From a bacterium (GTDB lineage: Bacteria; Chloroflexota; Dormibacteria; Aeolococcales; Bog-877): 32,315 nt of DNA. The translations under genes were made by a program, and so were the position numbers. Shown here piece after piece: positions 3,168-26,258 of the stretch. The stretch spans positions 1 to 32,315 of the forward strand of contig JAJZJU010000020.1 in the NCBI GenBank assembly GCA_021809895.1. The letters are read 5' to 3'. Every line of letters begins with the position of its first letter. Position 1 is the stretch's first letter. The notes beneath the pieces are model-generated. The model did not search any database and was not told where the DNA came from. It was given only the letters and a program-made list of their open reading frames with translations.

Positions 3168-4841
3168 GTGACGATGGCAAAATCGAGTGCTGCGGGCTGG
3201 CGACAGGGGATCGGAGGCCCGTGGGCGATGCTGGGTCTGGGATTGTTTCTCCTGCTGGTCAGGGTTTTCGAAAGGAGTGGCGGGAAAGGACCGACCTGGG
3301 CCAAGGGATCTGGCCTGGGGGATCCCAGGGCCTGGTCCCAGCTTGAGGTCGCCGCCACCGCCCTGGCCGCCGTCGGACTGCTCGTTGTGGTGGCCCAGAT
3401 GGAGCGATCGAAGCTGCTCAGACCCGGAGCCCTGGGCGGCGCCCGTCGTGCGGGACGAAGAGACCTGCGGCCTTTCCGCGGCGGTCGCGCCCACGCAGGT
3501 GCCACGGTCCGCCTTGGTACCCACCGGCTGGCCCCGGTCCATCTCCCCGCCGAGGATCACCTGCTGGTGCTGGGCCCAACCGGATCGGGCAAGTCGAGCG
3601 GCCTGGCCATACCAGCAATCCTGGAATGGCGGGGGGCCGTGGTCGTCACCGATCCCAAGGGAGAGCTGGTCCGGGCGACGCTGGCAGCGCGCCGCCAGCT
3701 CGGTCAGGCCGCGGTCTTCGCGCCGTTGATGGAGCCCTCTGACTGTTGGAATCCGGTCGGCTCGATCGTCAGCGCTGAGGATGCCCTCCGCACGGCGGGC
3801 CTGCTGATGGGCCGGCCACCGGAGAAAGAGCCCTTCTGGCATGACCTGGCTCTGCAGCTGCTGCAGGGACTTCTCGTGGAGGCGGCCGTGACTGGGATGG
3901 GCGTCGGAGACCTGCTGGCGATTTTGCAGGCCGTCCCGGCTGAGGACATCCCGGCTGAGCTCAGCCATCCGGTCGCACAGCGCCTGACCCAGGGGGCCAC
4001 GAGCGGCGGCGACCGGACCGCAATGGGTGTTGTTGCCACCCTGGTGGCGAAGCTCGCTCCCTACGCCACTGAACGGGTGGCCCAGACCACCTCGCGGAGC
4101 ACCTTCGATGCCGCCGACCTCGTGCGGGGCAATCTCAAGTCGATCTACTGCGTGGTCACGCCCCACGACGCACCGCTGCTTCGAGGCCTAGTCAGCGCCC
4201 TGCTGGCTTCCTGCTGGCGGGCCATCTACGCCTCCCCACCAGCGGTCCCGGTGCTGTTCGTGCTCGACGAATTCGCCCAGCTCACCCTCCTACCGGAACT
4301 CCCCGCCCTGGTCCAGCTGGGCCGATCGCAGGGGGTGCGGATGATACTGATGGGCCAGGACCTCAGCTCGATCAGCGGAATGTACGGCGCCGACACGGCG
4401 TCCGCGCTCTGGGCCAACTGCCGGACCAAGCTGCTGCTGGCCGGAATCTCCGAGATCGACCTGCTGGAACGGACCAGCCGCCTGGCGGGCATGACCACCC
4501 TGCACCGACGCCAGCCGGACCACCTCGACGAGCCGGTCAGCGCCCATCCGCTGCTGGCTCCAGACGACATCCGGCGTCTCCCCGACGACCGGGCCCTGAT
4601 CCTGCGTGGCAGCGGTCACCCGGCGGTGATCCGGCAGCGCCGGTGGTACCGCGACAGGGCCCTGCGACAGCTGGTGAACCTGCCCCTGGAAGCGGGACTG
4701 GTCCCGTCGCTTGCCACGGGCCGCCCCTTGACGGCATGGCGTGGCCGGAAGGACCGGTGTGGGGACGGGACCCGCGAGCAGGTCTGGGAGGACAGAGGTA
4801 GCGAGCCCGGCAAAAGTCAACAGGAGACCACCGCTTGTTGA
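3168..4841 (+). CDS. VirD4/TraG-family T4SS coupling ATPase
   Basis: Two N-terminal TMs; Walker A LGPTGSGKSSG, VVTDPKGELV, Walker B VLFVLDEFAQL, GMYGADTASALWANCRTKLLLAG. Confidence 0.92.
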   Translation: MTMAKSSAAGWRQGIGGPWAMLGLGLFLLLVRVFERSGGKGPTWAKGSGLGDPRAWSQLEVAATALAAVGLLVVVAQMERSKLLRPGALGGARRAGRRDLRPFRGGRAHAGATVRLGTHRLAPVHLPAEDHLLVLGPTGSGKSSGLAIPAILEWRGAVVVTDPKGELVRATLAARRQLGQAAVFAPLMEPSDCWNPVGSIVSAEDALRTAGLLMGRPPEKEPFWHDLALQLLQGLLVEAAVTGMGVGDLLAILQAVPAEDIPAELSHPVAQRLTQGATSGGDRTAMGVVATLVAKLAPYATERVAQTTSRSTFDAADLVRGNLKSIYCVVTPHDAPLLRGLVSALLASCWRAIYASPPAVPVLFVLDEFAQLTLLPELPALVQLGRSQGVRMILMGQDLSSISGMYGADTASALWANCRTKLLLAGISEIDLLERTSRLAGMTTLHRRQPDHLDEPVSAHPLLAPDDIRRLPDDRALILRGSGHPAVIRQRRWYRDRALRQLVNLPLEAGLVPSLATGRPLTAWRGRKDRCGDGTREQVWEDRGSEPGKSQQETTAC

Positions 4842-5122
4842 TCCTCACATCGTTCACGACCGGTCTGGACAACGTCATCCACACGGTCACGACCCTGGCC
4901 CTGGGCGCGGTGGCAGTCCTCTGCCTCAGCTACGCGGCCATTCGATACATGACCTCCCTGGACAACAGTCAACGGCGAGCCGCCGCCATTCAGGGCGTGG
5001 TCACAGTGCTGCTGGGAGTGCTGCTGCTGGTCAATGAGGGGGCGATCCTCAGCTTCGTCGAGGGACTCTCGGGAAGCAACACCGCCTGCGCCACCAGCAG
5101 CTGTTCCGCAACCACCCCCTGA
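4835..5122 (+). CDS. Small two-TM protein, candidate VirB2/pilin-like subunit
   Basis: 95 aa, TTG start overlapping the virD4 stop; two hydrophobic helices separated by a short polar loop (SLDNSQRRAA); position before virB6. Confidence 0.6.
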   Translation: MLILTSFTTGLDNVIHTVTTLALGAVAVLCLSYAAIRYMTSLDNSQRRAAAIQGVVTVLLGVLLLVNEGAILSFVEGLSGSNTACATSSCSATTP

Positions 5123-5166
5123 CCGCCCGAGCCTGGCTCGTACCCGCCACCGTCGGCGCCTGCATC

Positions 5167-7314
5167 TTGCTAGCAGTGGCCCTGGCGGTGGGACACGGGT
5201 CGGGCCGGGCTGTTGGCGGAGCCGGTCTGGAGTTGACCGCGGAGCCGAGCCCAGCCGCCCCGTCGCCCAGCCCAACGCCACCGTCGACGGGCACGGTCCA
5301 GACCAACACCACGAGCCAGCAGTGCCCGGGCATCACCGACCCTTTCTGCTACGTGATGGACGCGTTCGTGTCCGGCCCCGTGGCCATCATGGGTAGCCTG
5401 GACGGCAGCCCGGACCCGGCTCACATCGACCCTGCGACGGGCAGTGTCACCTCCGGCCCCTGGAGCCTGATCACCACCCTGGTCGGTTCCAACCCCGCAG
5501 TCGACAACTACGACGGCAGCCTCGGCGAGCCCGCTCACGAGTGCGGTCCCAGCGGTTGCATTCCCTGGGTGCAGAAGTTGAACTCCATCCTGACCCCTCT
5601 GGCCCTGGGGCTGCTCGTGGTCGCCTTTGCCCTCCAGGTCTCCCTCTTCATGGTGGGCCAGGAGCTGAACCTGCGGGCCGGCATCGTCCCCTGCCTCATC
5701 GCCGCCGGGGTGATCGGCGCCGGTCTGCCCCTGCACCTGGCCGGCAGAGCCATAGACGCCGGGAGCTGGGTGTCACAGGGCCTCCTGCAGGCGACGTTCC
5801 AGGGGATGGGAGCTCACACGGTCCAACCGCTGGACATGATGACGGTCCTTGACATGACGGCCTACTGCCCCGAGGACAGCCCGATCACCCACCCGGACAT
5901 ACACATCTCCTCACCGGGCAATTCCCCGCAGCAGCAGGTGTTGGTGAAGCCCTGGATGGACCCCCGCTTCACCCAGTCGCACTGTATCGCGACCGACAGT
6001 CCGGACTTCACCAAGGAGGTCCTGGACCGGTCTCAGAATTTCTTCGGCCCCCCTCTCCACGACGCCAACTGCGACCGCGGCGACGCCAGCCCCAGCCAGC
6101 CCCTCTGCACCAACACCGACAACCAGGTCAACGACAACCAAAACCAGAGCTGCCTGGAGGGAAGTGGCAACCCTACGCTGGGGTCCCAGCAGCTGAACCT
6201 GCTGCCCCTGCCGGGCGAACCCATCGCCGGAAACGGGCAGAGCCCCTCCGACTGCAGGTACGCGGACATCTACTGGGGCACCGTGCCCACCTTCACCGAC
6301 GTCTGGGCCGGCGTCGGTCCCCACGGACGCAACGGCTATGACGTTCCCGACGGGATCCAGGGCATGCTGGCCTACACCGTCCTGACCCTGCTCGGACTGT
6401 GGCTGGCCATGACCTACCTGGCGCGCTACCTGGTGCTGGCGATCCTCGCCGGTTGCTCCAGCCTGGCCTTTGTGCTGCTGGGCCTGCCGGGTGGGCGGGG
6501 GCTCTTCAACCGGTACTGGCGCACCATGGCCGAGCTGTCTGCGGTGGTGGTGATCCAGACCCTCATCTTCATCGTCTTCGTGGCCGTCATCTCAACCGTC
6601 TCCGGGCTGGCACCTGTCGCCTCCACCACCTCCTGTCCTCTCATCTCCGCCGGCTCGGCGGGGGGCTGCGCCGCCGGCTCCCACGGGCTGCTGGCCGCTG
6701 TGGGCAGCGGCAACCCAGGCAACCAGTTCGCCAAGTGCCTGCTCGCCATCGTGACCGTCTGGTTGATGCTGGAGGTGCCCAAGAGGATCAGCCACGGGGA
6801 GATGTCTACCTACCGCAGCCTCCGCGGGCTGGCTTCAGCGTCCTCAGGGGTTGTGATAGGCGGTGCTCTGATGGCGCGCTCGGAGGCCGGGCCCCGCGCC
6901 GCTCGCTTCGGCGCCAACGTGGGCGCTTCCCTGCGAGAGGCGACTGGACAGCCGAGCCAGTCGGACCATGAGCGGGCCCACCAGCTCGAGGCGGGTGAGC
7001 TCGCCGGACAGCCACGCTGGCCGCAGGTGCGGGGCTACGAGTCACGTGAGCAGTTCATCGGGAGATACCTGGTCGGACGGCCCGAGGCCACCCCTGAGTT
7101 GGTCAGAGTCGTCAAGGTCCAGCCTCAAGAGTTGGAGGAGATGCGAGCCGATGTCTGGTCCTCCCCCGGCCAGAAGCGGCTAGAACAGCTGGGAACCGAC
7201 TATGTGAACGCCCAGGGGGCCCTGGTCCACGACCTCGACGCCGTCTATCTCAACTCCGTTCGGCGCGGCAAGCTGGCACCCATGGCAGGGGACTGGACGG
7301 ACAGAGCCAGTTAG
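5167..7314 (+). CDS. VirB6/TrbL-like polytopic T4SS membrane protein with large Cys-rich loop (true start may be slightly upstream)
   Basis: Several hydrophobic segments; RYLVLAILAGCSSLAFVLLGLPGGRGLFNRYWRTM core; ~180-aa polar loop; position between pilin-like gene and PrgI/VirB4. Confidence 0.7.
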   Translation: MLAVALAVGHGSGRAVGGAGLELTAEPSPAAPSPSPTPPSTGTVQTNTTSQQCPGITDPFCYVMDAFVSGPVAIMGSLDGSPDPAHIDPATGSVTSGPWSLITTLVGSNPAVDNYDGSLGEPAHECGPSGCIPWVQKLNSILTPLALGLLVVAFALQVSLFMVGQELNLRAGIVPCLIAAGVIGAGLPLHLAGRAIDAGSWVSQGLLQATFQGMGAHTVQPLDMMTVLDMTAYCPEDSPITHPDIHISSPGNSPQQQVLVKPWMDPRFTQSHCIATDSPDFTKEVLDRSQNFFGPPLHDANCDRGDASPSQPLCTNTDNQVNDNQNQSCLEGSGNPTLGSQQLNLLPLPGEPIAGNGQSPSDCRYADIYWGTVPTFTDVWAGVGPHGRNGYDVPDGIQGMLAYTVLTLLGLWLAMTYLARYLVLAILAGCSSLAFVLLGLPGGRGLFNRYWRTMAELSAVVVIQTLIFIVFVAVISTVSGLAPVASTTSCPLISAGSAGGCAAGSHGLLAAVGSGNPGNQFAKCLLAIVTVWLMLEVPKRISHGEMSTYRSLRGLASASSGVVIGGALMARSEAGPRAARFGANVGASLREATGQPSQSDHERAHQLEAGELAGQPRWPQVRGYESREQFIGRYLVGRPEATPELVRVVKVQPQELEEMRADVWSSPGQKRLEQLGTDYVNAQGALVHDLDAVYLNSVRRGKLAPMAGDWTDRAS

Positions 7315-7316
7315 CC

Positions 7317-7676
7317 ATGGCCCCCACAGAGATCCCGATGCCGATCTCGGCGATGCCGACTCGCTGGGGAATGTTCACCGGCCATCAGCTCACCTGGATG
7401 GGAGCTGGCGGGCTGCCCCTCTATGTGTTGCTGCGAGCGCACGTGCCGTTGGGCGAAGCGCTGCCCGGCTGCGTGCCGTGGATGGTGACCGCGACTGCCC
7501 TGGCGTTTGGCAGATGCCAGGGCAGGGCACTGGACGCGTTCCTGGGCGACTGGGCAATGTTCCGAGCCCAACCAAAGACGCTGTTGCACCCGGAGCTGAG
7601 ACCGACGCCCCGCACGCCTCAGTTCGTCCAGGTCGACGGCCACGACCGGACCGTGCTGCCCTGGAGCCCGCCGTGA
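7317..7676 (+). CDS. PrgI/VirB3-like small T4SS membrane protein
   Basis: 119 aa with two hydrophobic segments, directly upstream of and overlapping (GTGA) virB4. Confidence 0.65.
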   Translation: MAPTEIPMPISAMPTRWGMFTGHQLTWMGAGGLPLYVLLRAHVPLGEALPGCVPWMVTATALAFGRCQGRALDAFLGDWAMFRAQPKTLLHPELRPTPRTPQFVQVDGHDRTVLPWSPP

Positions 7677-9943
7677 ACCCGCCTTCTTCGTCTCGGCGCG
7701 GCCTGACCACCGCCCTCATCGACCTTCTTTGCGTGGAGGGACGCACCGCGACCCTGACGTCGGGAGCCCGCCGTGCGGCTCTGGAGGTCGAACCGGCGAA
7801 CTTTGTGCTCCAGGACGAGGCCGACCGCGACCTGCTCTGGCGCCGTTACCGCCAGCTCCTCACCGCCGTCGGGGCTCCGGTCTCCCTCTATGTCGTATCG
7901 AGGCCTCTGGATGGACCGGCAGCGGTGCCCGTGATCACCCGGTCTACGATGGCGGCCCTCTCGGCCCATGACCGCGGGTTCGTGGACGGCCTGGTCACCA
8001 GCCACCAGGTGCAACGCCAGCGGCATCTGGTAGTGGTCTGGCAGCGCCAGACCTGGCCACCGCGGCCGGGGCCTGCCGCCTGGCGGCGCAGGGTCCCCGC
8101 TGCAACTCCCACTGCCGAGCTCGACCAGCGCTGTGACGCCCTCCTTGAGGGCTTGGGCCGACTCGGCCTGCGGGCGAGGACCCTCGACCAGGGGGCGTGG
8201 TTCGCGCTGTTGCAGGAATGCTGTGGGGGCAGGAGCGGCCGCCAGCCGGCCGACTTCCAGAGCTGGCTGGCGCCGACGCGAGTGACGGTGGCGCCAGATC
8301 AGCTCCGGATCGACCAGCGCCTATGCCGGAGCCTGCAGATCTCCGGCTTTCCGCGCCGGGTGCGCATGGGGTGGCTGGCCCCTCTGCTACTGAGCCCGCC
8401 GTGCACCCTGAGGCTTGCCGAACACATCTATCCGATGCCAAAGCTGGCAACCCTGAGCCATCTGCGCCGGCGCATCAGGAGCTTCGAGACCAGCCTCCAG
8501 GTGGATCAGATGCGAGGACGCCGTCCCGACCAGGGCACTCGATCCGCTCTGGGCGACGCACTCGAACTTGAGGAGAGGGTCTTGCTGGAGGAGGAGCGCC
8601 TCTTCGGGCTTGGGGTCACCTTGACCCTGGAGGCGGGATCTGAGGACCAGCTGAGCTCTGCCTGGAATTGGGTGGTATCGACCCTGGCAGAGATCGGCTG
8701 CACTACCACGCCGGCCACCCACCGTCAGGTGGACGGCTGGCGCGCCACCATCCCTCTTGGGGCCGACCCCCTGGAGTGGAAGCGCGACATGACCGGGGGC
8801 GCGCTGGCCACGGCGATCCCCTTCGTGAGAGCTGGCCTCTCCCAAACCGGCGGAGCCTTGCTGGGCCCGAGCCTGGTCTCCAGGGAGCTGGTGTTCGCAG
8901 ATCCATTCGCGCGGCGGAATCCCAACTTCAACCTGCTGGTGCTGGGCACCTCGGGCGCTGGCAAGTCCTTCACCGCCAAGCTGCTCGCCGCCCGACTGCT
9001 TCTCCAGGGAGTGCGGATCAGGTGTGTGGACCCGTCCGGCGAGTACCAGGGGCTGGCCGCCCTGGTCGGCGGCGCCTTCCTACAACTGGGTGGGTCCTCG
9101 GGTGGCGGCCTGAATCCGCTGGGACCGGTCCCCAAAGAAATGACCCCGGATGCGGCGGAGCAACGCGCCTTCCGCGCCCTGCCGATCCTGGAACGGCTGG
9201 GCGCCGCCAGGACCACCGCCTCATCGCTCGACGAGCGCAACCTGGAGCAGTTGGAAGTCGCTCTCCTGCAGGTGCTGCGCCAGGATCCGCACGGGGCCCG
9301 CCTGCAGGACCTGGTGGAAGCCCTCAACGAGGCTGGCGCCACCGCCCTGGGGGCTCGGCTCGACCGCCTCACCAACGGCTTGGAGCGAGGCTTCTTCGAC
9401 GGCACCGCCCAATTCACCGGCCCGAATTTCTCCGCCATCTCCCTCAGGGAGCTGCGTCACGACCGCGAACAGCTGCTGACGGCCCTGATCCATCTGGTCC
9501 TGGTGCACCTGGAGGCCGAGCTGGACGAGGGCTCAGGAACGGCCCATCTGCTGCTGGTGGACGAGGCTGAGGTTCTGCTGGACTCGGAGCGATCGGCCAA
9601 GGCGCTGGAGCGGCTCACCCGCCGTCTGCGCAAATCCGGAGCCGGCCTGATGGTGCTTTCACAGGTGGTGGAGGACTTCCTCGGATCCCCGGTGGGAAAC
9701 GTGGTCATCCGCAACTGCCACACCAAGGTGCTGCTGCGCCAGGAGGAGGTTGCCGTACCGGCCCTGAGGGAGGCCTTCGGGCTCTCCACCATGGAGTGCG
9801 ACCTTCTCCTGTCGTGCGACCCCGGCTGCGGATTGATCCTGGTTGGAGGTGAGCACGCGGCTTTTCGCGGCGCGGCTCCCCCGCAGTGGCTGGCCGCCCT
9901 CACCACCGACGCCCTGGTCCGAGCCCCAGGAGCCGGCGCTTGA
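7673..9943 (+). CDS. VirB4-family T4SS ATPase, module 1 (ORF-track start 7478 probably too far upstream; GTG at 7673)
   Basis: Walker A VLGTSGAGKSFTAKL, RCVDPSGEYQGL, Walker B HLLLVDEAEVLLD, LSQVVEDFLGS. GTG 7673 gives a GTGA overlap with the upstream stop. Confidence 0.9.
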   Translation: MNPPSSSRRGLTTALIDLLCVEGRTATLTSGARRAALEVEPANFVLQDEADRDLLWRRYRQLLTAVGAPVSLYVVSRPLDGPAAVPVITRSTMAALSAHDRGFVDGLVTSHQVQRQRHLVVVWQRQTWPPRPGPAAWRRRVPAATPTAELDQRCDALLEGLGRLGLRARTLDQGAWFALLQECCGGRSGRQPADFQSWLAPTRVTVAPDQLRIDQRLCRSLQISGFPRRVRMGWLAPLLLSPPCTLRLAEHIYPMPKLATLSHLRRRIRSFETSLQVDQMRGRRPDQGTRSALGDALELEERVLLEEERLFGLGVTLTLEAGSEDQLSSAWNWVVSTLAEIGCTTTPATHRQVDGWRATIPLGADPLEWKRDMTGGALATAIPFVRAGLSQTGGALLGPSLVSRELVFADPFARRNPNFNLLVLGTSGAGKSFTAKLLAARLLLQGVRIRCVDPSGEYQGLAALVGGAFLQLGGSSGGGLNPLGPVPKEMTPDAAEQRAFRALPILERLGAARTTASSLDERNLEQLEVALLQVLRQDPHGARLQDLVEALNEAGATALGARLDRLTNGLERGFFDGTAQFTGPNFSAISLRELRHDREQLLTALIHLVLVHLEAELDEGSGTAHLLLVDEAEVLLDSERSAKALERLTRRLRKSGAGLMVLSQVVEDFLGSPVGNVVIRNCHTKVLLRQEEVAVPALREAFGLSTMECDLLLSCDPGCGLILVGGEHAAFRGAAPPQWLAALTTDALVRAPGAGA

Positions 9944-10611
9944 GAGCGTTCAGATGGTTTTCAGCGCTGGCCCTCGGCGGCTGTGCCGTCCCTCTGGTCA
10001 TCACCCTGTCCCTGCTGGGAGTCCTTGGAGTGGGCGCATCGGCGGCCGGCTGGCCAGCGATCTCGGGGCTGCTTCCCAGCCCCGGGGGATTCATGCTCCC
10101 CGCCGGGCGCGTTGTCCTGGCTGGCAGCCAGGGCTTCCCCGATTGGGCCCTGCCCTGCGGACCTGAGCCAGGAGCGCTGGCCGTGGACCCGTCGGCCTGC
10201 ACAGGCCACCCCGCCCCCTACCCCTACTCCTACCAGGGATTCGCCACCGGCCAGTGCACCTGGTACGTGGCCACCCGCCGCCAGGTCACCTGGCACACTC
10301 CCGGCGGATTGCTGGGAGGCAACGCCGGCCAGTGGCTCGGCCTGGCCGCCCAGGCGGGGTTCGCGGTAGGCGCCACACCCTCGGTGGGAGCCATCGTGGT
10401 CTACACCGACCAGGGGGACGGTCACGTCGCCTTCGTGGTCGGAGTGGACGACCGCGGAGACTACACCGTGGCCGAGGCCAACTGGGCGCTGAACGGCCCG
10501 GTCGCCCCATTTGTCGACCTGCGAGGAGTCGCCGCCGGCACCACCGGCAGCTCGTTCGAGCAATTGGCCGGCTTCATCTATGGACCCGCCGCAAGGCCGT
10601 ACGCGACCTGA
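9940..10611 (+). CDS. CHAP-domain peptidoglycan hydrolase with N-terminal signal/TM segment
   Basis: GQCTWYVATRRQV (Cys), GDGHVAFVV (His), VAEANW. TTG start overlaps the virB4 stop. Confidence 0.82.
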   Translation: MRAFRWFSALALGGCAVPLVITLSLLGVLGVGASAAGWPAISGLLPSPGGFMLPAGRVVLAGSQGFPDWALPCGPEPGALAVDPSACTGHPAPYPYSYQGFATGQCTWYVATRRQVTWHTPGGLLGGNAGQWLGLAAQAGFAVGATPSVGAIVVYTDQGDGHVAFVVGVDDRGDYTVAEANWALNGPVAPFVDLRGVAAGTTGSSFEQLAGFIYGPAARPYAT

Positions 10612-10631
10612 CCCTCCCTATCCTGTTCTCG

Positions 10632-11867: not shown

Positions 11868-12117
11868 GCTGGACGACGGCGTGCTCGACGCCCGTCGTCA
11901 CCGGCTCGACAGCGCCGCCTCGGAGGCTCGCGCGGCGCTGAGGAGGCTCCAGCGCCTTGGGGATAGAGTTGCGGAACTGGAGCAGGCCCATCTGGCAGGC
12001 CCGGCAAAGGAAGCGGAGGAGGCCGTGCAGCGCCTCCTGGAGCTTTTGGAGCAGGCTCGGGTGGAGCAGCGTCAGCTCTTGAAAAGGCAGCTGCGAGGAG
12101 AGGATGGTGAGCAGTGA
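11860..12117 (+). CDS. Small coiled-coil protein
   Basis: 85 aa, charged heptad-like pattern, GTG start overlapping the MFS stop. Confidence 0.5.
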   Translation: MAELDDGVLDARRHRLDSAASEARAALRRLQRLGDRVAELEQAHLAGPAKEAEEAVQRLLELLEQARVEQRQLLKRQLRGEDGEQ

Positions 12118-12141
12118 GAGCAGCTCACGGCCCGGGCGGGA

Positions 12142-12765: not shown

Positions 12766-12781
12766 GCCCCCATGCTATGCC

Positions 12782-13672: not shown

Positions 13673-13728
13673 GGGATGATCCCCATCTGCAGGTCGTGGC
13701 CCCCTTGTTGAGACAGTCGGCTCAGCGA

Positions 13729-14739: not shown

Positions 14740-14771
14740 AGCCCACGGGCCAGCGGGGGCCGAAGCCCAGG

Positions 14772-14801: not shown

Positions 14802-14837
14802 CGGCCCTCGTAACGGTCGCGCTATGTGGGAGGACGT

Positions 14838-15809
14838 ATGCGCGGAGCCCAACTTATTGGGCGTGTCTGTCTTGCGGTCGCCATGGCTGGCGTGGTCTGG
14901 GGTTCGGCTCTTGCTGGTCCTGGTCCCACCACTTCGGCGAAGCAGGGGCTCGCCCTCGACAAGGCTCAGCTGAGTTCACTGCTGAAACAGCTCGAGGCCC
15001 AGGGCGCACTGGCAGCCAAGAGCAGGGTCATGGGATTGCTGGTCAAGATCGAGACCGAGCAGAATTACCTGACCCAGTTGAACAAGCAGCTGGCCGGGGA
15101 CATCGCTACCACCGCCCTCCTGAGCAGGCAGATGGCGGGCGACCAAACCGTTCTGATGAGCCTGGTCAGCACCGCCTATGTGGACGGGAACGGCAGCCTG
15201 GCGGTGGCGGAGGCTCTGGCGGCTCCTAACATCTCTCAATTCCTGAGCAGTACCACCCTGCCCGCCGCGATCGCCTCGCAGGTGACCACTCTGGTGGGCA
15301 CAATTCGGCATGACCGCCAGGTGGTTGCCAGTGACACGGCCCAGCTGCGGCAGGACGAGGCCCAGGCCATGGTCTCCCAGCAGCAGCTGGGAGCGCAGTC
15401 GCTGCAGCTGCTCTCGCAGATGTCGACATCAGCCCCCCTGGTGGGGATCGGACCGGGCGGATCGAATGGCTGGTCGTTCGCCTTCGGCGAGTGCACCTGG
15501 TATGTCGCCACCCAGCGCCAGGTCGCCTGGGGCGGCAACGCTGACCAGTGGTGGGCCAATGCGGCTGCGGCCGGCTTCCTCGAGGGACAGACCCCAAGGG
15601 TCGGGTCAATTGTGGTGTGGGGAGCGAACGTCCCAGGGGAGAGCTTCGGCTACGGCCATGTGGCCTACGTGGAGGCGGTCCAGGGCAACCAGTTCGAGGT
15701 CTCCGAGATGAACTTCAGTGGCGTCCCGGGGGGCGGGTGGGACAGGGTCGATTACAGATGGGTTCCAGATGGCGCAGGATACCTGGGCTTCATATACGGC
15801 CGCGGTTGA
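14838..15809 (+). CDS. Secreted coiled-coil + CHAP-domain peptidoglycan hydrolase
   Basis: Signal peptide; helical N-terminal region (LDKAQLSSLLKQLEAQ...); CHAP GECTWYVATQRQVAWGGNADQWW...YGHVAYVEAVQ...SEMNF. Confidence 0.85.
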   Translation: MRGAQLIGRVCLAVAMAGVVWGSALAGPGPTTSAKQGLALDKAQLSSLLKQLEAQGALAAKSRVMGLLVKIETEQNYLTQLNKQLAGDIATTALLSRQMAGDQTVLMSLVSTAYVDGNGSLAVAEALAAPNISQFLSSTTLPAAIASQVTTLVGTIRHDRQVVASDTAQLRQDEAQAMVSQQQLGAQSLQLLSQMSTSAPLVGIGPGGSNGWSFAFGECTWYVATQRQVAWGGNADQWWANAAAAGFLEGQTPRVGSIVVWGANVPGESFGYGHVAYVEAVQGNQFEVSEMNFSGVPGGGWDRVDYRWVPDGAGYLGFIYGRG

Positions 15810-15810
15810 G

Positions 15811-16437
15811 TTGAGGCTGCGGCCTGAAGAGGCCGTGGCTCCGCTCCCCGCGCTGCCGCTGCTGGCGAGCCGCTTAAGGTGGCTGCTGGCTGCGGCAGTG
15901 GTGCTCTTCGTCGCGCCTGTGGCCAGCGTGCTCTCGGCGCAGGGGGCGCCCCGGCCCACCGCCGCAGACCCGGCCGCGATCAGCCAGATCGCGGGCCAGG
16001 CGCGCAACATCCTCTCCCCCACCAGCTATGCGGTCACCATGCCCCTTCAGGAGGCGCGGGTCACACCGCCCCCCACCCCGGTGCCGGTGGTCGCGGCAGG
16101 CCCGGCGGCGTCGTTGAGCGTTGCCTCCTCCCCCTACGGGAGCTCCTTTTGGCAGCCGGTGGCGGAGCCACCGGTGGGCACCATCAAGCAGATCATCTGG
16201 GCAGCGGGGCAGAAGTACAACGTCTCCTACAGCTGGCTTTTGTCGGTGGCGGAATGCGAGTCGGGACTGGATCCCACCGCCGTCAACCGCTCCTCGGGCG
16301 CCAGCGGCTTGTTCCAGTTCATGCCGGCCACCTTCTACGGCCACGGTGGCACCGACATCTGGAATCCGACCCAGCAGGCTGACATCGCGGCCAAGATGTT
16401 CTCGATCGGGGAATCGTCGGAGTGGGTCTGCAAGTAG
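15811..16437 (+). CDS. Lytic transglycosylase-like (SLT/goose-lysozyme fold) membrane-anchored protein
   Basis: TM segment, Pro-rich linker, IIWAAGQKYNVSYSWLLSVAECESGLDPTAVNRSSGASGLFQFMPATF. Confidence 0.82.
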   Translation: MRLRPEEAVAPLPALPLLASRLRWLLAAAVVLFVAPVASVLSAQGAPRPTAADPAAISQIAGQARNILSPTSYAVTMPLQEARVTPPPTPVPVVAAGPAASLSVASSPYGSSFWQPVAEPPVGTIKQIIWAAGQKYNVSYSWLLSVAECESGLDPTAVNRSSGASGLFQFMPATFYGHGGTDIWNPTQQADIAAKMFSIGESSEWVCK

Positions 16438-16448
16438 ACTGAGCTGGC

Positions 16449-16646: not shown

Positions 16647-16661
16647 GATTCACAGAATCTC
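16645..16661. promoter_or_regulatory. Perfect 7-bp inverted repeat GAGATTC-ACA-GAATCTC, candidate operator
   Basis: Read directly; lies immediately upstream of TAGAAT (16665-16670) and ATG 16677. Confidence 0.5.
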
Positions 16662-16676
16662 CTTTAGAATCAGGCG

Positions 16677-18991: not shown

Positions 18992-19043
18992 GCAGTGTCC
19001 CGGAACTGTCGGACCGGGCCGTGAGCGCGCCAGGGGGCGGCCC

Positions 19044-19679
19044 ATGAACGAGGTGGTCGTCGTGGGAGACGCCGAGTTGCAACGGCGCACCCACCAGCTC
19101 CTGCCAAATTTTCAGGTGATCGGCATAGCCGAGGATCCCGACTTCGGGGACCCCATCACCAGCGTGGCCCCGCTGCGTTCACTGATCGAGAGCTCAGATC
19201 CCCCCGATGCTGTGGTGTGCTCTGCCAGCCCAGGATTCACGGTGCTGAGCCAGCTGGCACACTTCCCCCCGAACCGCTGCTTCATCCACCCCAGCAGCCC
19301 GGTCGGGTGGCCGATGGAGACGATGCGCTGGATGGCCGAGGCCACCGGGATGGCGCTGCTGCCCAATCTTGAGGCGCTGCCGGCCGCAATCCTCGCCCGC
19401 GGGCTGCAGCCCGCTCCCAAGCCCCAGGAGGGGCCCGCTGCTCTGCCCGCCAAACGAAACCAGCAGCCAACCCCGCCAGGCGAGGATGAGAGTGACCCTC
19501 GGGACCGAGATTTCGCTTGGGCCGACGCCACCCCGGTCCAGGTCCCCCCACCTCCGGTCTCCCTCGACCCCGAGCCGGTCCCGCGCGCGCCGCAGGTGAT
19601 CGACGCTGGTCCTCAGTCGCCGCGCAGCGCCTACCTGCCGACCGATCTGCTGCGGCCCCTGCGGCCACGGACGGGCTGA
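19044..19679 (+). CDS. Hypothetical protein: N-terminal Rossmann/receiver-like part plus Pro-rich C-terminal tail
   Basis: 211 aa; MNEVVVVGDAELQRRTHQLLPNFQVIGIAED...; disordered proline-rich C-terminus. Confidence 0.6.
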   Translation: MNEVVVVGDAELQRRTHQLLPNFQVIGIAEDPDFGDPITSVAPLRSLIESSDPPDAVVCSASPGFTVLSQLAHFPPNRCFIHPSSPVGWPMETMRWMAEATGMALLPNLEALPAAILARGLQPAPKPQEGPAALPAKRNQQPTPPGEDESDPRDRDFAWADATPVQVPPPPVSLDPEPVPRAPQVIDAGPQSPRSAYLPTDLLRPLRPRTG

Positions 19680-19685
19680 GCTTCG

Positions 19686-20093
19686 ATGCCAAGCATGCCC
19701 ATGCGGCGGCGTGCCCCCAGCTCGGATCAGCTGGACCGCGGCAGATCGGAGCTGCAACGCGCCATGGCGGTCGTTGACGACGTGGCTCGGACCGGCAACC
19801 TGGCGCGGCTTGGGCAGGCCTTCGCCGGCGATGCGCTGAGCGAGGTGAGGTCGAGATTCCACGCCTACCAGATGGCGGGAATCCAGGTCAGCCCGTTCAG
19901 AGAGTCCCTTCACGTGGAGCTGGCACCGGCGCGACCGGGCGGCGGACTCCAGTTGAGGGTGAGGTATCGCGACCGCACCAGCTTCCTCTGCTCCGGTGAC
20001 CAGCCGGTGACCGCCAACGACCCCGTCCAGCTGTCCCTGGTGATGGACACCACCCTCGACCCCTGGAAGGTGGTATTCATAGCGGAAGAGTGA
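19686..20093 (+). CDS. Hypothetical protein (135 aa, possible NTF2-like alpha+beta fold)
   Basis: Helical N-terminus then amphipathic strands LQLRVRYRDRTSFLCSGD...VQLSLVMDTTLDPWKVVFIAEE. Fold guess only. Confidence 0.55.
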   Translation: MPSMPMRRRAPSSDQLDRGRSELQRAMAVVDDVARTGNLARLGQAFAGDALSEVRSRFHAYQMAGIQVSPFRESLHVELAPARPGGGLQLRVRYRDRTSFLCSGDQPVTANDPVQLSLVMDTTLDPWKVVFIAEE

Positions 20094-20135
20094 GCCGCGC
20101 CGGGGACCGCTCCGGTGCATGCTACGCTGAGGGGG

Positions 20136-20639
20136 ATGCGAGCCCGCATGCTCAGGGCTCCAACAGTTGATCGGGAAGCAAGTGTGACCAAAGCCAAGAA
20201 CCACGAGGTCCCGTCGTCTCCGCGAGCGGCGGAGACGGAGGCCTCCGCGCCCGCGGACGACGACGAGGTTACCCTCGACCCTGAGGACGAGCTCGAGGAA
20301 GAGGACCTGGTTGAACCTGAGGCGGCGGTGGTCCCTCGACCCCAGCCCCGGCCCTCCCCTCCCCGTCCATGGGGTGGAAATCGTGGCAACATCTCCCCTG
20401 AGGACCTGTCTCCGGAGGAGCTAACCCCCGAGATGAGATGGCCGCCGGGCACCTGGGTGAGGGTCACCGACGTGGTCCGGCACAGCACCGGCGAGCCGGT
20501 TGGAACCATTGCGGTCGGCGACATCGGGCAGGTGACCGCAGCACTCTCCCAGACCCTGGTGGTCCTATTCCCCACCAGGGACAACCGCCGGGAGGTGCTC
20601 CACATCGACTCCATCGAGGCGGTAGAAGCTCCCGAGTGA
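20136..20639 (+). CDS. Hypothetical protein: acidic low-complexity N-terminus + SH3/KOW-like C-terminal domain (ORF track start 20115)
   Basis: GTWVRVTDVVRHSTGEPVGTIAVGDIGQVTAALSQTLVVLFPTRDNRREVLHIDSIEAVEA; TACGCT box 7 nt before ATG 20136. Confidence 0.6.
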   Translation: MRARMLRAPTVDREASVTKAKNHEVPSSPRAAETEASAPADDDEVTLDPEDELEEEDLVEPEAAVVPRPQPRPSPPRPWGGNRGNISPEDLSPEELTPEMRWPPGTWVRVTDVVRHSTGEPVGTIAVGDIGQVTAALSQTLVVLFPTRDNRREVLHIDSIEAVEAPE

Positions 20640-20695
20640 CCCCCGCCCGCGCCTTCGATGCGGAATTAGTTGGGGAGTCGCCGCCGGGTTCCCAC

Positions 20696-21058
20696 ATGCC
20701 GGGAACCCTGATTCTCCATGGGCTGAGGTTCTTCGGGCACCACGGCCAGAGCGACGCGGAGCGCGGGCTGGGCTCCCACTTTGTGGTGGACCTCGATCTC
20801 AGCACCGACTTCGCGCGTGCCGCGGAATCGGATCAGCTCGCGGACACGATCAGCTATCCCGAGGTCTACGAATTGGCGCGGCGGCTCACCGAGGAGACCG
20901 AATTCCATCTCCTGGAGGCGCTTGCGGCGCGCCTGGCCGGTGCCGTCATGGCCATGCCAGGCGTGCTGTCCGTCCGAGTCCGAGTCACCAAACAGCCGCG
21001 GCTCCCACTCCAGGAGCAGGGATTCGCGGTGGAGTTGGTGCTGCCCAGCCCTCAGTAG
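20696..21058 (+). CDS. folB: Dihydroneopterin aldolase (alternative GTG start 20636 overlaps upstream stop)
   Basis: LILHGLRFFGHHGQSDAERGLGSHFVVDLDLSTDF...DTISYPEVYELARRLTEETEFHLLEALAARLAGAV...VRVTKQ. Confidence 0.88.
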   Translation: MPGTLILHGLRFFGHHGQSDAERGLGSHFVVDLDLSTDFARAAESDQLADTISYPEVYELARRLTEETEFHLLEALAARLAGAVMAMPGVLSVRVRVTKQPRLPLQEQGFAVELVLPSPQ

Positions 21059-21194
21059 GCGGACCTGAGCAGCGCCTCCACCAGACCGGCCGGTGGACCC
21101 GCCGGAAGACGTTCCAGCAGTGGTAGCTGGATCGCCTCCTGAAGGCCACGGCCGGTAGGAGTCCAGAACCAGGCGAGACCGGACATAGGCGTTT

Positions 21195-21569
21195 GTGAGG
21201 ACGCCTGCCTCTCAAACGAGCATCCGACGGGACCGGGTAGGCGGCACCGTCCACTTCACCGCCCCCGCCCCCCACGAGGAGATCATCGCCTGGGGGCTGC
21301 CGGCCGGTCGCTTGGGGTTGGTCGCTGCCGGGGCTGTGGCAGCGGCCACATGCCTCAACCTCCCTGAGCCGGACTGGCTGCGAGGGTTAGAGGCTACGTC
21401 TACCATGGCCGGTGCGGCTGCTCTGGCATGGGCTCGGTTGGGCGGGCTCCCGGCATGGCACTGGGCCCTCCTTCTCCTGCGCATGGTCTGGCGCAACCGT
21501 GCAGGAATCCTCCATCGACGGACCGGTTGGGCGCCGGTGGAGCTGGCTGGGCCCGATCCCACCAGGTGA
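21195..21569 (+). CDS. PrgI/VirB3-like T4SS membrane protein, module 2
   Basis: HFTAPAPHEEIIAWGLPAGRLGLVAAGAVAAATCL with hydrophobic segments; directly upstream of virB4-2 with GTGA overlap. Confidence 0.65.
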   Translation: MRTPASQTSIRRDRVGGTVHFTAPAPHEEIIAWGLPAGRLGLVAAGAVAAATCLNLPEPDWLRGLEATSTMAGAAALAWARLGGLPAWHWALLLLRMVWRNRAGILHRRTGWAPVELAGPDPTR

Positions 21570-23560
21570 CACAGGCCGTGTGGCGGACGGTGGGTCCCGA
21601 CCTCCTCGACCTGGCCAGCGGCGAACGGGATCGTCTGGCGCGAGAGTTCGGAGCCTGGTTGAGCCTTCTCCAAGATCCGTGCACGCTGGTGATCTGCAGC
21701 CGGCTTTGGGCCGAGTGCAAAGCGCCGCCGGAAGGCTCCGCGCTCGACCGCGCGCGAGTGGAAGGGATGGCCCTCGACCGTGCCGACCGGGGCGCCTACC
21801 GTCGGACCACCCACCTGGTCACGGACGGGGTGGACGAGTCCCTGGACCAGGCCCTGCTGATGTCGATGAGGCGCCACTGCCTGGTCGAAAGCGAGCGCAC
21901 GGACCAGATTCCGCCTCTGGCCGTCGGGCCGCTTCAGGAGCAGGCGCGACAGCTTCTGATCGGGGGCCGTCACCTCCACTCACTCCGGCTCTGCCGCCTG
22001 CCGACCGTGGAGGTCGGCCCGGGATGGCTGTGGAGCCTGTTGTGCGGCGCCGGAGAGTTCGACCTGGGGATCACCATAGCTCCCCGCGACCCCGCCCTCG
22101 CGGATCGCGATCTGCGGCTTCGACTGCGCGGCCTGCGGGCGCGAGAGCTGGCCGGCTCCCGCGACTCCCCGGACCCCAGGATCTCGGTGTTGGCGCGAGC
22201 CGCGGAGGGCCTGAGATTCGTGCTGGCAGAGGGCGAGGAGCGCCTGTTCGAGGTCGCGATGACGATCACCCTCGCGGCCAACTCCTGGACCGAGTTGGAA
22301 GCTGTGACGCGAGACTTCTGGGCCCGCTCAGCCGGCCTGCGGTCGGGGTGGACATCTGCCCGCTTCGACGAGTTCCCCGCTCGGCTGGAGTCGCTGGGAA
22401 GACCGCAACCCGGGCTCAGGCCGAAGATGCTCGTCAGCACGGGTGAGGTCTCCACCCTTTGGCCATGGTTCGGGCAACCTCACCTGCAAGCGGTTGACCG
22501 AAGTCTCGTCGGGACCCACAAGCGCACCGGCCAATGGCTGGGACTCGATCTGCATCGCGACCCCGGCCTGACCAATGCGAATCTGGCTGTGGTGGCATCG
22601 TCGGGAGCCGGCAAGTCTTACCTGGCGGGTCTGCTGGCAATGGAGGCGGTCCGGCGCGGCCAGGCGGTGGTGGTGGTGGACCCCGAGAACGAGCACGCCG
22701 TCTGGTGCGAGCATGCGGGCGGCACCTACATGGACGTTCTCAGTCCCGGGGCCGCCCGCTTCAATGTCTTGGAGATGGGTCCGTCGGTCGAGGCCCTGGC
22801 TGCCACAGCTGATCTGGTCGGCCTTCTCTGCGGGCCACTTGCGACCGCGGAGCGCTCAGCCCTGCTGGAGGTTGCGGGTGCGCTCATCGAGGAGATCCCA
22901 AAAAGGCGGCTTCCCGTTTTGGCGGACTGCCTGCCCCTACTCCAAGCTCACCCCAACGGGCGGGACCTGGCGACCCGATTGCGACCATGGGTGAATGGAG
23001 AGTCCGGCCAATTCTTCAGCAGCCCGGGCCGCGGACCGGAGGTCAGAGGGGTGCTGGCCCTGGGCATCCGCGGTCTCCCAGAGCCGTGGATCCGCCCGGC
23101 CACTCTGCTCATCTCATCCTGGCTGTGGCAGTGGGTCAAGGACCACCCGGGCGAAAAGCAGGTCATAGTTGATGAGGCGGGCCTGTTGGCCGATAGCCCC
23201 GCGCTTCAGCAGCTCATGGAACGCCTGGCCCGACGGGTGCGCAAGTACCAGGGATCTCTCATGCTGCTGACCCAGACCGGGGCGGACCTGACCGCCACCC
23301 GCTTCGGAGAGGTGATGGTGGTGAACTCAGCGACCCAGCTGCTCGGCAGCCAGAGCGAGGCCGGCGCCCGTCGCCTGCAGGACTCCCTGGCCTTGGACGA
23401 ACCAGACAGGCTCTTCCTCCAGCAGGCTGCTCGGGGTGAGTTCCTGCTGGTCTGTGGGTTGCAGCGGATCCCGTTGACCGTGGCCGCCCCTCCCATTTAC
23501 CACAGCTGGCTCACCAGAGCAACGTCGCAGCCGGCGGGGAGGCGGACCGGGGCAGCTTAG
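21566..23560 (+). CDS. VirB4-family T4SS ATPase, module 2 (GTG start; ORF-track start 21428 too far upstream)
   Basis: Walker A VVASSGAGKSYLAGL, AVVVVDPENEHAVW, Walker B KQVIVDEAGLLADS, RVRKYQGSLMLLTQTGADL. Confidence 0.88.
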   Translation: MTQAVWRTVGPDLLDLASGERDRLAREFGAWLSLLQDPCTLVICSRLWAECKAPPEGSALDRARVEGMALDRADRGAYRRTTHLVTDGVDESLDQALLMSMRRHCLVESERTDQIPPLAVGPLQEQARQLLIGGRHLHSLRLCRLPTVEVGPGWLWSLLCGAGEFDLGITIAPRDPALADRDLRLRLRGLRARELAGSRDSPDPRISVLARAAEGLRFVLAEGEERLFEVAMTITLAANSWTELEAVTRDFWARSAGLRSGWTSARFDEFPARLESLGRPQPGLRPKMLVSTGEVSTLWPWFGQPHLQAVDRSLVGTHKRTGQWLGLDLHRDPGLTNANLAVVASSGAGKSYLAGLLAMEAVRRGQAVVVVDPENEHAVWCEHAGGTYMDVLSPGAARFNVLEMGPSVEALAATADLVGLLCGPLATAERSALLEVAGALIEEIPKRRLPVLADCLPLLQAHPNGRDLATRLRPWVNGESGQFFSSPGRGPEVRGVLALGIRGLPEPWIRPATLLISSWLWQWVKDHPGEKQVIVDEAGLLADSPALQQLMERLARRVRKYQGSLMLLTQTGADLTATRFGEVMVVNSATQLLGSQSEAGARRLQDSLALDEPDRLFLQQAARGEFLLVCGLQRIPLTVAAPPIYHSWLTRATSQPAGRRTGAA

Positions 23561-23569
23561 AATCAGGCG

Positions 23570-24166
23570 ATGGCCCGCGTCGTCTACTACCGCCTGCTCA
23601 ACGCCGGCCGTGCCAGCGAGAGTGACTGGGCGGTCGCGGTGTCCAAGCTGGCCTCGGCACGGTCATGGCGCTCGGACCCGGTCTGGCTTGCCACCGACCA
23701 CAGTCGCAGCCTATTCGAGTCCGAGTACCTGCGCCACCTGCGCCTGGACAGCGCGGAGCCGATCGTGGGGGCGGGCTTTGTGAAGCTGGCAGGTGATGAG
23801 ACAGACGCACTGGCCGTGTCCTTTGGGATGCTTCAGCTCACCCAAGAGCTCGGCGGCAGGGTGGTCGTGGAAGACCCGGATAATCCCATTCGCAAGCAGA
23901 GGCAGCTGGAGCTCATCGAGGGCCAGGTGGTCGGCCCTCGAACCATCGACGAGGTGATGGTCTCCGGGCCAATCTTCAAGCGGTTGCCACACGCGACCAT
24001 CACCTTCTACCCGCCCCGGTATAGGGGTCGCACCATGCCGGGGCCGTCCAGCCCGCCAGGCCTGTGGAGCTTTTCCCTCCAGGGCATGCGTGCCCATGCC
24101 TCGGGCTTCCTGGAGGCGGAAGCGGAGGCGATGCGGATCTATCGCGGGCTGCAGGCGATCGGCTGA
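23570..24166 (+). CDS. Hypothetical protein (198 aa) directly after virB4-2
   Basis: Continuous ORF; TAGAAT box overlaps the virB4-2 stop; no recognisable family. Confidence 0.65.
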   Translation: MARVVYYRLLNAGRASESDWAVAVSKLASARSWRSDPVWLATDHSRSLFESEYLRHLRLDSAEPIVGAGFVKLAGDETDALAVSFGMLQLTQELGGRVVVEDPDNPIRKQRQLELIEGQVVGPRTIDEVMVSGPIFKRLPHATITFYPPRYRGRTMPGPSSPPGLWSFSLQGMRAHASGFLEAEAEAMRIYRGLQAIG

Positions 24167-24170
24167 GCCC

Positions 24171-24641
24171 GTGCGCGCGATCGTCCAGAGGGTCGAGCGA
24201 GCGCAGGTGCGTGTCGACCAAGAGCTGGTGGGGGCGATCGGGCGGGGACTGCTGATCTACCTCGGCGTGGGCCCGCAGGATGACGAGCAGGTGGCGCGTC
24301 ATCTGGCTGAGCGGCTGGTTGGGCTGCGCATCTTCGCGGACGCCGCCGGAAGGATGAACCGCTCCCTGCTGGAAGTGGGTGGCGGGGCCCTGCTGGTCAG
24401 CCAATTCACCCTGTTCGCCGACCTCCGACGCGGGCACAGACCGTCCTTTATAAGCGCGGGCCCTCCGGACCTGGGCCAGCGGCTGTGCCAGCAAGTCGCC
24501 GGCGCTCTGTCGGTCCTGGGAGTAGACCCGGTCGCCCAGGGCAGCTTCGGCGCCCACATGACGGTGGACTCCCGCAACGACGGCCCCGTGACGATCGTGG
24601 CGAGTGCTGGCGAGCCCCCTTGGGCCGCCGACTGCGGATGA
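24171..24641 (+). CDS. dtd: D-aminoacyl-tRNA deacylase
   Basis: RAIVQRVERAQVRVD, LVSQFTLFADLRRGHRPSF, FGAHMTVDSRNDGPVTI. Confidence 0.95.
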   Translation: MRAIVQRVERAQVRVDQELVGAIGRGLLIYLGVGPQDDEQVARHLAERLVGLRIFADAAGRMNRSLLEVGGGALLVSQFTLFADLRRGHRPSFISAGPPDLGQRLCQQVAGALSVLGVDPVAQGSFGAHMTVDSRNDGPVTIVASAGEPPWAADCG

Positions 24642-25102
24642 GCTAACGCTGCCATACCACAGGTCGGATCGCTGGCTCTTTGCCGTCAACGCTGCGGAGC
24701 CAATCGATCCTCGGGCAAGTCGGGATTGAACAAATTGCGGCCGCACGCCCCTTCTGCAAGGGAGAGGTCAGTGCCACCGGTTTGACGCCCCTCAGGGCGT
24801 GCTCTGGCGCCCGACTACCAACATAAGTGTCTAGAGACGGAACTGCCCTTACCAAGGGCTCCTGGCGGACAGATCAGGTGCGATGTCATGCCAGCTTGGG
24901 GCCCCGATCTCCACCGACATTCTCCCGGTGCACTCACGACGGCGCTCAGCGACCAGCGCGCCTTCGCCAGACGGTTCGTTCGAATGGGGAGGAAGCGCGT
25001 CGCGAGCTCTCCCAGCCAGACGTCAGGACAGGCCAGGTGAGGCGGGGGAGAGCGACCTCCGCGTCGCGTCGCCACGGCGCTTCCCATGCCCGGGCCCCCG
25101 AG

Positions 25103-25342
25103 ATGGCTGAGCTCGACTCGCTGCTCAACTCCTGGGTGTTGCTCGCCCAAGGGCTGATCGGGAGCCTGGGAACTCTGGCCTTCGCCTGCGCGTTCATCTG
25201 GCGGGTGGTTGCCCCCAGCCCGCACAGCGCCATGGAGGCGCAGCGCTGGTTGGGCCGTATCGCGATCGGAACTCTGGGTGTGGAGCTGGCGGGGCTCCTC
25301 ACCCATGTGCTCCTGTCCGCGGTACCTCACACTCTCGGCTGA
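25103..25342 (+). CDS. Small two-TM protein, candidate pilin/VirB2-like subunit of module 2
   Basis: MAELDSLLNSWVLLAQGLIGSLGTLAFACAFIWRVVAPSPHSAMEAQRWLGRIAIGTLGVELAGLLTHVLLSAVPHTLG; resembles the 4835 ORF in size and topology. Confidence 0.55.
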   Translation: MAELDSLLNSWVLLAQGLIGSLGTLAFACAFIWRVVAPSPHSAMEAQRWLGRIAIGTLGVELAGLLTHVLLSAVPHTLG

Positions 25343-25346
25343 GTCC

Positions 25347-26258
25347 TTGCTCGCGGCGCTGCTGACGCTGCCCACGTTCGCGGTCAATCCGCTGGAGCTT
25401 CTGGACCGGCTGCTGGGCTCCGCCATGGCACAGTTCGTGCAGAGCGCTCGCACGGGGCTGGACCAGGATCTCAGGTCGTACCTCTTCTCGACCCATGACG
25501 TGGCGGGCCCGTCGCCGGCCACCCCTTTCACGAGCACCCCTGGGGTGGCCTCCGTCAACCATCTGCTGGTCATCGCCAGTGCAGCTCTGCTGCTCGGCGT
25601 TCTGCTCTACAGCGGCCTGCGCACCGTCATCAGCGCCGGCGGGCCGACTCCTCACCAACTCCAGGTGGTGCTGCCTCGCTCCCTGGGAGGGCTGACGATG
25701 GGGATCTTCAGCCTGCCCATGATTCAGCAGTTGATCGATCTCAACAATGCGCTCTGCCAGGTGCTGGTTGGGAGAGCCGCAGTCAATCTCGGGGATCTGC
25801 CGTGGACCAGCCCACTGAGCGGTCCCGCCATCACCTCGGCCGGCAACAATCTTTTCCTTTTGGTGTTCGCCGCGGCGCTGGCGGTCGCGGTGGTGGTGCT
25901 GGCCCTCGCCTACGTCGTCCGCTACACGTTGCTGGCGGTGCTGTGTGCGAGCGCACCCATGGCCGCCCTCTGCTGGACGCTTCCCGAGACCCGTGGCTTC
26001 GCCCGGCAGTGGGGAAGGCTGTTCACGGTGTCCCTCTTCATGCAGGTGGGCCAGCTGCTGGTCCTGCGGGTGGCCACCACGCTGGCCTTCGCGCCCGGAA
26101 AGGGCCTGGCGGGAATGCTTTACGCGTTCGCTTCCCTGTACTTGATGCTGCGGGTGCCGGGGGCCCTCAACGTGGCGACCCACTACGGCACCAGCTTGGA
26201 ATCCAGCGGACGGCGCTGGAGCCGGGCGGTGCGCCATCTGGCGGTTGATGCGGTCTGA
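25347..26258 (+). CDS. VirB6/TrbL-like polytopic membrane protein, module 2 (TTG 25347 likely; ORF track start 25209)
   Basis: Multiple TMs; VRYTLLAVLCASAPMAALCWTLPETRGFARQWGRLF parallels the RYLVLAILAG...LPGGRGLFNRYWRTM segment of module 1. Confidence 0.65.
   Translation: MLAALLTLPTFAVNPLELLDRLLGSAMAQFVQSARTGLDQDLRSYLFSTHDVAGPSPATPFTSTPGVASVNHLLVIASAALLLGVLLYSGLRTVISAGGPTPHQLQVVLPRSLGGLTMGIFSLPMIQQLIDLNNALCQVLVGRAAVNLGDLPWTSPLSGPAITSAGNNLFLLVFAAALAVAVVVLALAYVVRYTLLAVLCASAPMAALCWTLPETRGFARQWGRLFTVSLFMQVGQLLVLRVATTLAFAPGKGLAGMLYAFASLYLMLRVPGALNVATHYGTSLESSGRRWSRAVRHLAVDAV

Follow-up and report, generated by a model that had tools for sequence, protein, structure and literature searches.

A resident, relaxase-free type IV secretion-like locus with two cores in Dormibacteria as a candidate apparatus for cellular DNA exchange

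The window analysed here is the entire contig C39 (JAJZJU010000020.1, 32,315 bases) of a 2.5-Mb draft genome, 86% complete, of the class Dormibacteria (GTDB lineage Chloroflexota; Dormibacteria; Aeolococcales; Bog-877). It carries two gene sets resembling a type IV secretion system (T4SS), termed core 1 (VirD4, pilin, VirB6, VirB3, VirB4 and a CHAP hydrolase) and core 2 (VirB2, VirB3, VirB4 and VirB6; Table 1). A preliminary description made from the sequence alone had named one VirD4 and pairs of VirB4, PrgI, pilin and VirB6 proteins. Most of these assignments were supported by a Pfam profile search of the proteins, whereas VirB6-1, PrgI-2 and pilin-2 gave no Pfam hit of their own and were identified by position, topology and the conservation of their families. 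The Walker motifs, as read in the sequence, are intact in all three ATPases, and VirB4-2 matched the VirB4 structure 4ag5 in the PDB (8e-50). The genes hemE, UbiA, M20, folB and one of the enolase superfamily (NSAR-like), already described between the two cores, were confirmed, too. Three peptidoglycan hydrolases (CHAP, CHAP/PcsB-like, SLT) lie within or between the cores and are co-conserved. In agreement with the preliminary description, the scan of the window proteins revealed no relaxase, integrase, VirB11 or partition gene, and no outer-membrane core VirB7-10.

Table 1. Features of the T4SS-like locus and adjoining genes in the window
Feature	Coordinates	Strand	Evidence
Core 1: VirD4-type coupling ATPase	3168..4841	+	PF02534 4e-49; Walker A GPTGSGKS and Walker B VLDEFA intact
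Core 1: VirB2-like pilin 1	4835..5122	+	T4SS_pilin 1.5e-4, below cutoff; 83-97% identity within family
Core 1: VirB6-like polytopic protein 1	5167..7314	+	no Pfam hit of its own; position, topology, conserved family
Core 1: PrgI/VirB3-like 1	7317..7676	+	PF12666 8e-6, just under cutoff
Core 1: VirB4-1 ATPase	7685..9943	+	P-loop_TraG 2e-15; family-only clade
Core 1: CHAP peptidoglycan hydrolase (VirB1-like)	9913..10611	+	PF05257 1e-17; synteny
Core 2: PrgI/VirB3-like 2	21195..21569	+	no Pfam hit of its own; position, topology, family alignment; relatives match PF12666
Core 2: VirB4-2 ATPase	21563..23560	+	AAA_10 2e-10 /TraG; class clade with 100% support
Core 2: VirB2-like pilin 2, two transmembrane segments, 79 aa	25103..25342	+	no Pfam hit of its own; 71-95% identity in family; class-wide operon with VirB6-2
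Core 2: VirB6-like protein 2	25341..26258	+	TrbL_4 3e-6, above cutoff
CHAP / PcsB-like peptidoglycan hydrolase, possible accessory	14826..15809	+	PF05257 3e-18; PcsB 1e-18
SLT lytic transglycosylase, possible accessory	15754..16437	+	PF01464 1.6e-11
198-aa class-signature orphan	23570..24166	+	adjoins virB4-2 in the window; constant partner of dtd
dtd (D-Tyr-tRNA deacylase), passenger outside the machine	24150..24641	+	PF02580 2e-48
Orphan response-regulator receiver gene, possible regulator	2537..3103	-	Response_reg 2.5e-15; divergent from virD4 in all family members seen

It is nearly certain that the locus is resident and vertically inherited, as the preliminary description had proposed. 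The window's family (f1) is represented by 18 genomes (G000-G017) from five sampled genera which, like all genomes compared, are draft metagenome-assembled genomes. VirB4-1 was detected in 17 and VirB4-2 in all 18 of them. The whole arrangement of about 30 kb is syntenic across the five genera, in the order penicillin-binding protein, response regulator, virD4, pilin, virB6, prgI, virB4, CHAP and major facilitator superfamily (MFS) gene, further on hemE, CHAP, SLT, M20 and NSAR, and further on again folB, prgI, virB4, the orphan, dtd, pilin and virB6. A dispersal of core 1 in genera g2 and g4 was considered and rejected, since the contigs there end inside VirB6-1. No empty site was found among the family genomes. 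The locus genes are under purifying selection, with pairwise ratios of non-synonymous to synonymous substitutions (dN/dS) like those of neighbouring housekeeping genes: 0.13-0.23 for VirD4, 0.16-0.24 for VirB4-1, 0.20-0.25 for VirB4-2, 0.09-0.17 for the VirB6s and 0-0.07 for the pilins (pilin 1 included), compared to 0.14-0.20 for hemE. Both VirB4 trees follow taxonomy, VirB4-1 repeating the same branching order within the family, and this agreement with independently assigned genera argues for vertical descent. Correlations of 0.97-0.99 between the pairwise distances of VirD4, VirB4-1, VirB4-2 and hemE show only the shared inheritance of the region because these genes are linked.

The genome-wide relaxase search covered the MOBP and MOBF families. 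MOBP (PF03432) was absent from the whole family; MOBF (PF08751) was detected in 6 of the 18 genomes, always away from the T4SS locus. No MOBP/MOBF relaxase was found near the locus, including the 161-162 kb contigs of relatives. Sporadic presence and a flanking relaxase had been named beforehand as signs of a mobile element, and the opposite was observed. One such relaxase belongs to an element at positions 4749-12966 of L262 (G012:C44), together with a VirD4-like coupling ATPase of its own and a ParA; no VirB4 lies on the contig, and this mobilizable element would need another T4SS channel. That mobile elements of this kind exploit the resident channel is speculation.

The two cores differ in age and origin, a result that goes beyond the preliminary description, as do the associations in relatives reported below. 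In a phylum-wide draw of 301 genomes (38 of the class and 263 others), VirB4-2 was found in 34 of the 38 class genomes with 570-817 bits; outside the class the matches were sporadic and reached at most 411 bits. The VirB4-2 proteins of four families form one clade (support 100). Every family is monophyletic in it, and the two that belong to one order cluster with each other (99). VirB6-2 was present in 90 of 101 class genomes, usually on a different contig from VirB4-2. In most relatives VirB4-2, VirB6-2 and a linked single-stranded DNA-binding protein (SSB) sit on different contigs, and all three are missing from genus g9 (two draft genomes). This joint absence is expected if the genes, though scattered, act in one machine. 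No relatives of core 2 were found among viral contigs. Core 2 is an ancient, class-wide minimal T4SS.

For core 1 the distribution is a different one. High-scoring VirD4 (14 of 16) and VirB6-1 (15 of 16) are restricted to the window's family, the VirD4 orthologues scoring 650-850 bits. The comparison of the two VirB4 phylogenies suggested in the preliminary description yielded separate clades, each following taxonomy: VirB4-1 forms a family-only clade outside that of VirB4-2, among mobile-type and other VirB4s. A recent tandem duplication giving rise to both cores was rejected because other lineages fall between the two VirB4 clades. The best PLSDB match of VirB4-1 is on an Embleya plasmid with the order PrgI, VirB4, VirD4, replication-relaxation protein and NlpC/P60, and the VirB4s of plasmids of the MPF_FATA type belong to its closest matches in this database. 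Judged by gene content, core 1 resembles this plasmid set minus the relaxase. As to its history, core 1 is likely a domesticated former conjugative element. Its VirB6-1 (alignment A7, mean column identity 75%) contains a long, highly conserved cysteine-containing region without transmembrane segments, with no Pfam or PDB match for the protein and a predicted structure of low confidence (predicted local distance difference test, pLDDT, 38). This region is among the best-conserved parts of the locus, which is unusual for a presumably surface-exposed domain.

Partners of core 2 were counted at 16 loci around VirB6-2 from the other families of the class (f2-f4). VirB6-2 is preceded by a pilin at every one of them; downstream of it, 15 of the loci have an M23 peptidase and 14 have an SSB (Pfam). 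The T4SS-linked SSBs form a clade apart from the housekeeping SSB (support 100/99). All housekeeping SSBs with a complete C-terminus end with DDIPF or a close variant, and none of the T4SS-linked ones does. PrgI/VirB3 is fused to a ParA/MinD ATPase domain in f2 genomes, and basal members of the window's family have this fusion as well; degenerate ParA remnants are present on PrgI in some f4 genomes. Four genomes from two families (G019, G025, G054 and G058; loci L036:2035-10924, L043, L299 and L300) carry a complete Tad set (TadA, TadB, TadC, Flp, TadE, TadF, CpaB) between PrgI-ParA and VirB4-2. Further SSB genes were noticed in G002, where four near-identical divergent copies (44 bits) lie on C168, C101, C71 and C172, probably on a repeated mobile element; a similar copy is present in the window's genome (C100). 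A third, sporadic T4SS-like set was seen in f2 and f4 genomes (L202:4382-8367, L215:9933-13805, L217:8937-13229, L218:75-3876). It comprises a TrbL/VirB6-like protein, a protein of about 495 aa, one domain of which resembles EccE (ESX type VII), and a short VirB4-like ATPase of about 420 aa; two of these four loci also have a hydrolase, CHAP or SLT/M23.

ComEC was not detected in any of the 18 family genomes but is present in 27 of 43 genomes of other families. It is also missing from genus g9, which lost core 2, and from genus g14, which kept it. Only one family genome gave a high-scoring full-length match of the PilB/GspE type.

We consider the chances evenly balanced that the locus is a domesticated, relaxase-free conjugation apparatus of two cores for the cellular exchange of single-stranded DNA. 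DNA as substrate, the direction of transport and the cooperation between the cores are what we infer here. Core 2 would most likely carry chromosomal DNA in single-stranded form from one cell to another among kin. The VirB2 pilus and Tad pili, the latter possibly in an aggregation role, would draw the cells together, the peptidoglycan hydrolases would open the cell wall, VirB4 would power the VirB6 pore, and ParA and SSB would handle the DNA on the cytoplasmic side. The ancestral partners of core 2 would have been the ParA domain, the M23 peptidase, the dedicated SSB and, in some of the class at least, the Tad pilus. Core 1 would have been a single acquisition in the ancestor of the window's family, with a conjugative element of actinobacterial type as the probable source. 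It lost the relaxase but kept VirD4 and therefore probably adds a VirD4-dependent export route, which in the window's family would be substrate-selective. Somewhat short of an even chance, in our estimation, is the more specific proposal of a cell-owned bacterial DNA exchange system, in which a conjugation apparatus was domesticated at the base of the class (VirB3-ParA, nested Tad, tail-less SSB) and one family later added a VirD4 core, as a counterpart of the archaeal Ced/Ted systems.

Several observations weigh against a role in DNA exchange. PrgI-2 of the window's genus has no ParA domain and neither SSB nor M23 lies beside its VirB6-2; within the family the T4SS-linked SSB occurs in a single genome (G006). 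The strongest evidence for DNA comes therefore from relatives. The window's genus lost the ParA domain and the T4SS-linked SSB, and the case for DNA transfer is weaker there. The SSB is missing from two of the 16 f2-f4 loci as well. SSB and ParA genes accompany other systems, too; Tad loci e.g. carry the ParA-like CpaE. The relaxase-free status rests on the MOBP and MOBF searches, and VirB8, usually needed by Gram-positive conjugation T4SSs, had no Pfam match among the proteins scanned, although structure-level homologues could escape such a search.

The main rival explanation is a resident T4SS secreting proteins or mediating contact-dependent cell interaction; VirD4 of the window's family would then recruit effectors. 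The strong constraint on VirD4 and the conserved cysteine-containing region of VirB6-1 would fit such a role, as would the loss of ComEC and, G006 excepted, of the T4SS-linked SSB from this family; furthermore, Patescibacteria use a relaxase-free chromosomal T4SS which is needed for epibiotic growth (PMC12102498). We nevertheless regard this rival as unlikely: the locus has no linked family of candidate effectors, in relatives the SSB and ParA partners are more in keeping with DNA, and the pilins are nearly invariant, whereas surface parts engaged in antagonism or host interaction typically diversify. Near invariance of the pilins, the most conserved parts of the locus, could instead point to an apparatus kept mainly to assemble surface pili or adhesins (T4SS pilus and Tad) with no macromolecule transfer. 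The Tad operon embedded in the core 2 locus of four genomes is in line with this, and a comparable role has been discussed for the Trw T4SS of Bartonella (PMC12857230). This explanation is very unlikely, as it leaves the dedicated SSB and VirD4 unexplained and most f2 and f4 loci, like the window, have no Tad genes between PrgI and VirB4-2.

DNA would be the substrate, too, if core 2 were a DNA-uptake (competence) machine like ComB of H. pylori, feeding ComEC, with core 1 unrelated to it. VirD4 and VirB11 are missing from core 2 as they are from ComB (PMC12857230), ComEC occurs in the majority of the genomes of other families, and g9 misses both ComEC and core 2. The 18 family genomes and genus g14, however, keep core 2 without detectable ComEC, which weakens a ComB-like role, and no VirB7-10 outer-membrane core was found; we hold it to be quite unlikely. 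Finally, the preliminary description had offered a decayed or split conjugative element as its alternative. The composition of core 1, like the Embleya plasmid set minus the relaxase, and the position of VirB4-1 among mobile-type and other VirB4s would agree with such an element being lost. As a present state it is refuted and its probability is minimal, since the locus is in place across five genera with intact open reading frames and motifs, dN/dS (omega) values of 0.09-0.25 and no empty site. An ordinary integrative and conjugative element (ICE) was rejected along with a decaying one on account of the distribution (17-18 of 18 genomes), the fixed synteny, the taxonomy-congruent tree and dN/dS: VirB4, VirD4 and the VirB3/VirB6 channel parts of a conjugative element are present, but no linked relaxase was found (MOBP and MOBF searched genome-wide) and the distribution is not sporadic. 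A match to mad8 given by PADLOC was put down to the similarity that P-loop ATPases have in common and not to membership in a defence system.

The orphan of 198 aa next to virB4-2 is a single-copy gene found in 36 of the 38 class genomes and in none of the 263 other genomes of the phylum. In two f4 genomes, G051 (L042:8327-11323) and G254 (C233), it forms one continuous frame with VirB4-2, which on sequence grounds suggests a fusion. Its AlphaFold2 model (m3109b2c3331d, alignment A8) is confident (pLDDT 90), and fold searches with it gave no PDB match and no strong viral match. As the orphan stays beside dtd where VirB4-2 moves away, we rejected it as a proven T4SS part; its role in the T4SS is uncertain. 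Downstream of core 2, the minus strand of the window (26303-32258) carries a catabolic cluster of FAD-dependent oxidoreductase, aldehyde dehydrogenase, class-III aminotransferase and PucR-like regulator, which among the family members read is kept in G002 only.

Hyperthermophilic archaea have been described as having domesticated a conjugation apparatus for cellular DNA transfer, and the authors knew of no other organisms (PMC9905601). If cellular DNA exchange is indeed the function, a relaxase-free T4SS that is inherited vertically throughout the class and comes with its own SSB, ParA fusion and nested Tad would extend such domestication to bacteria and provide a candidate mechanism of gene exchange in an abundant uncultured soil lineage. 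In the open-access PMC literature we found no paper that treats Tad pilus, VirB4 and PrgI together, nor one that connects Dormibacteria to natural transformation.

Among known systems, the locus agrees with the MPF_FATA (monoderm) type in having VirB4, VirD4/TrsD and PrgI with no outer-membrane core (VirB7/9/10). The best NCBIfam VirB4 model was that of the CD1110 family, with scores below the equivalog cutoffs. MPF_FATA plasmids and ICEs, such as the plasmid of Embleya sp. NBC_00896 (locus L294), share PrgI-VirB4-VirD4 with a cell-wall hydrolase and the position of VirB6. The Embleya plasmid, however, has a gene of the replication-relaxation family beside virD4 which is not present in the window, and the window's locus is fixed and vertically inherited. 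ComB of H. pylori is likewise a T4SS without VirD4 and VirB11, used for DNA uptake (PMC12857230), but it needs VirB7-10 and ComEC, and the window's family is without ComEC. The T4SS of Patescibacteria is similar in its monoderm-type VirB4, PrgI, VirB6 and VirB2-like pilin, its chromosomal location and the absence of a relaxase in most genomes; it differs in lying near the replication origin or competence genes and in serving epibiosis (PMC12102498). Compared to it, Dormibacteria add a second core with VirD4, the SSB, the ParA fusion and the Tad association. In a published placement (PMC12102498) Dormibacterota and Chloroflexota are neighbours of Patescibacteria, which raises the question whether the T4SS of the latter is ancestral rather than horizontally acquired.

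The Ced/Ted systems for DNA import in Sulfolobales and Thermoproteales share with core 2 a chromosomal, domesticated VirB2/VirB4/VirB6 set with no relaxase. A gene of the VirC1/ParA type is found in Ted loci. In Ced the VirB4-like proteins come as a pair (CedB/CedD), as do the VirB6-like ones (CedA/CedE), and the system relies on aggregation pili (PMC9905601, PMC11868833). Unlike these, the Dormibacteria system is bacterial and comes with VirB3/PrgI, peptidoglycan hydrolases, SSB and a Tad rather than a Ups pilus, together with the VirD4 of core 1. The CedD model matched the two VirB4s weakly and over the ATPase only (26 and 21 bits, cutoff 600). By analogy, the Dormibacteria system may work like Ced/Ted but lies outside the Ced/Ted clade.

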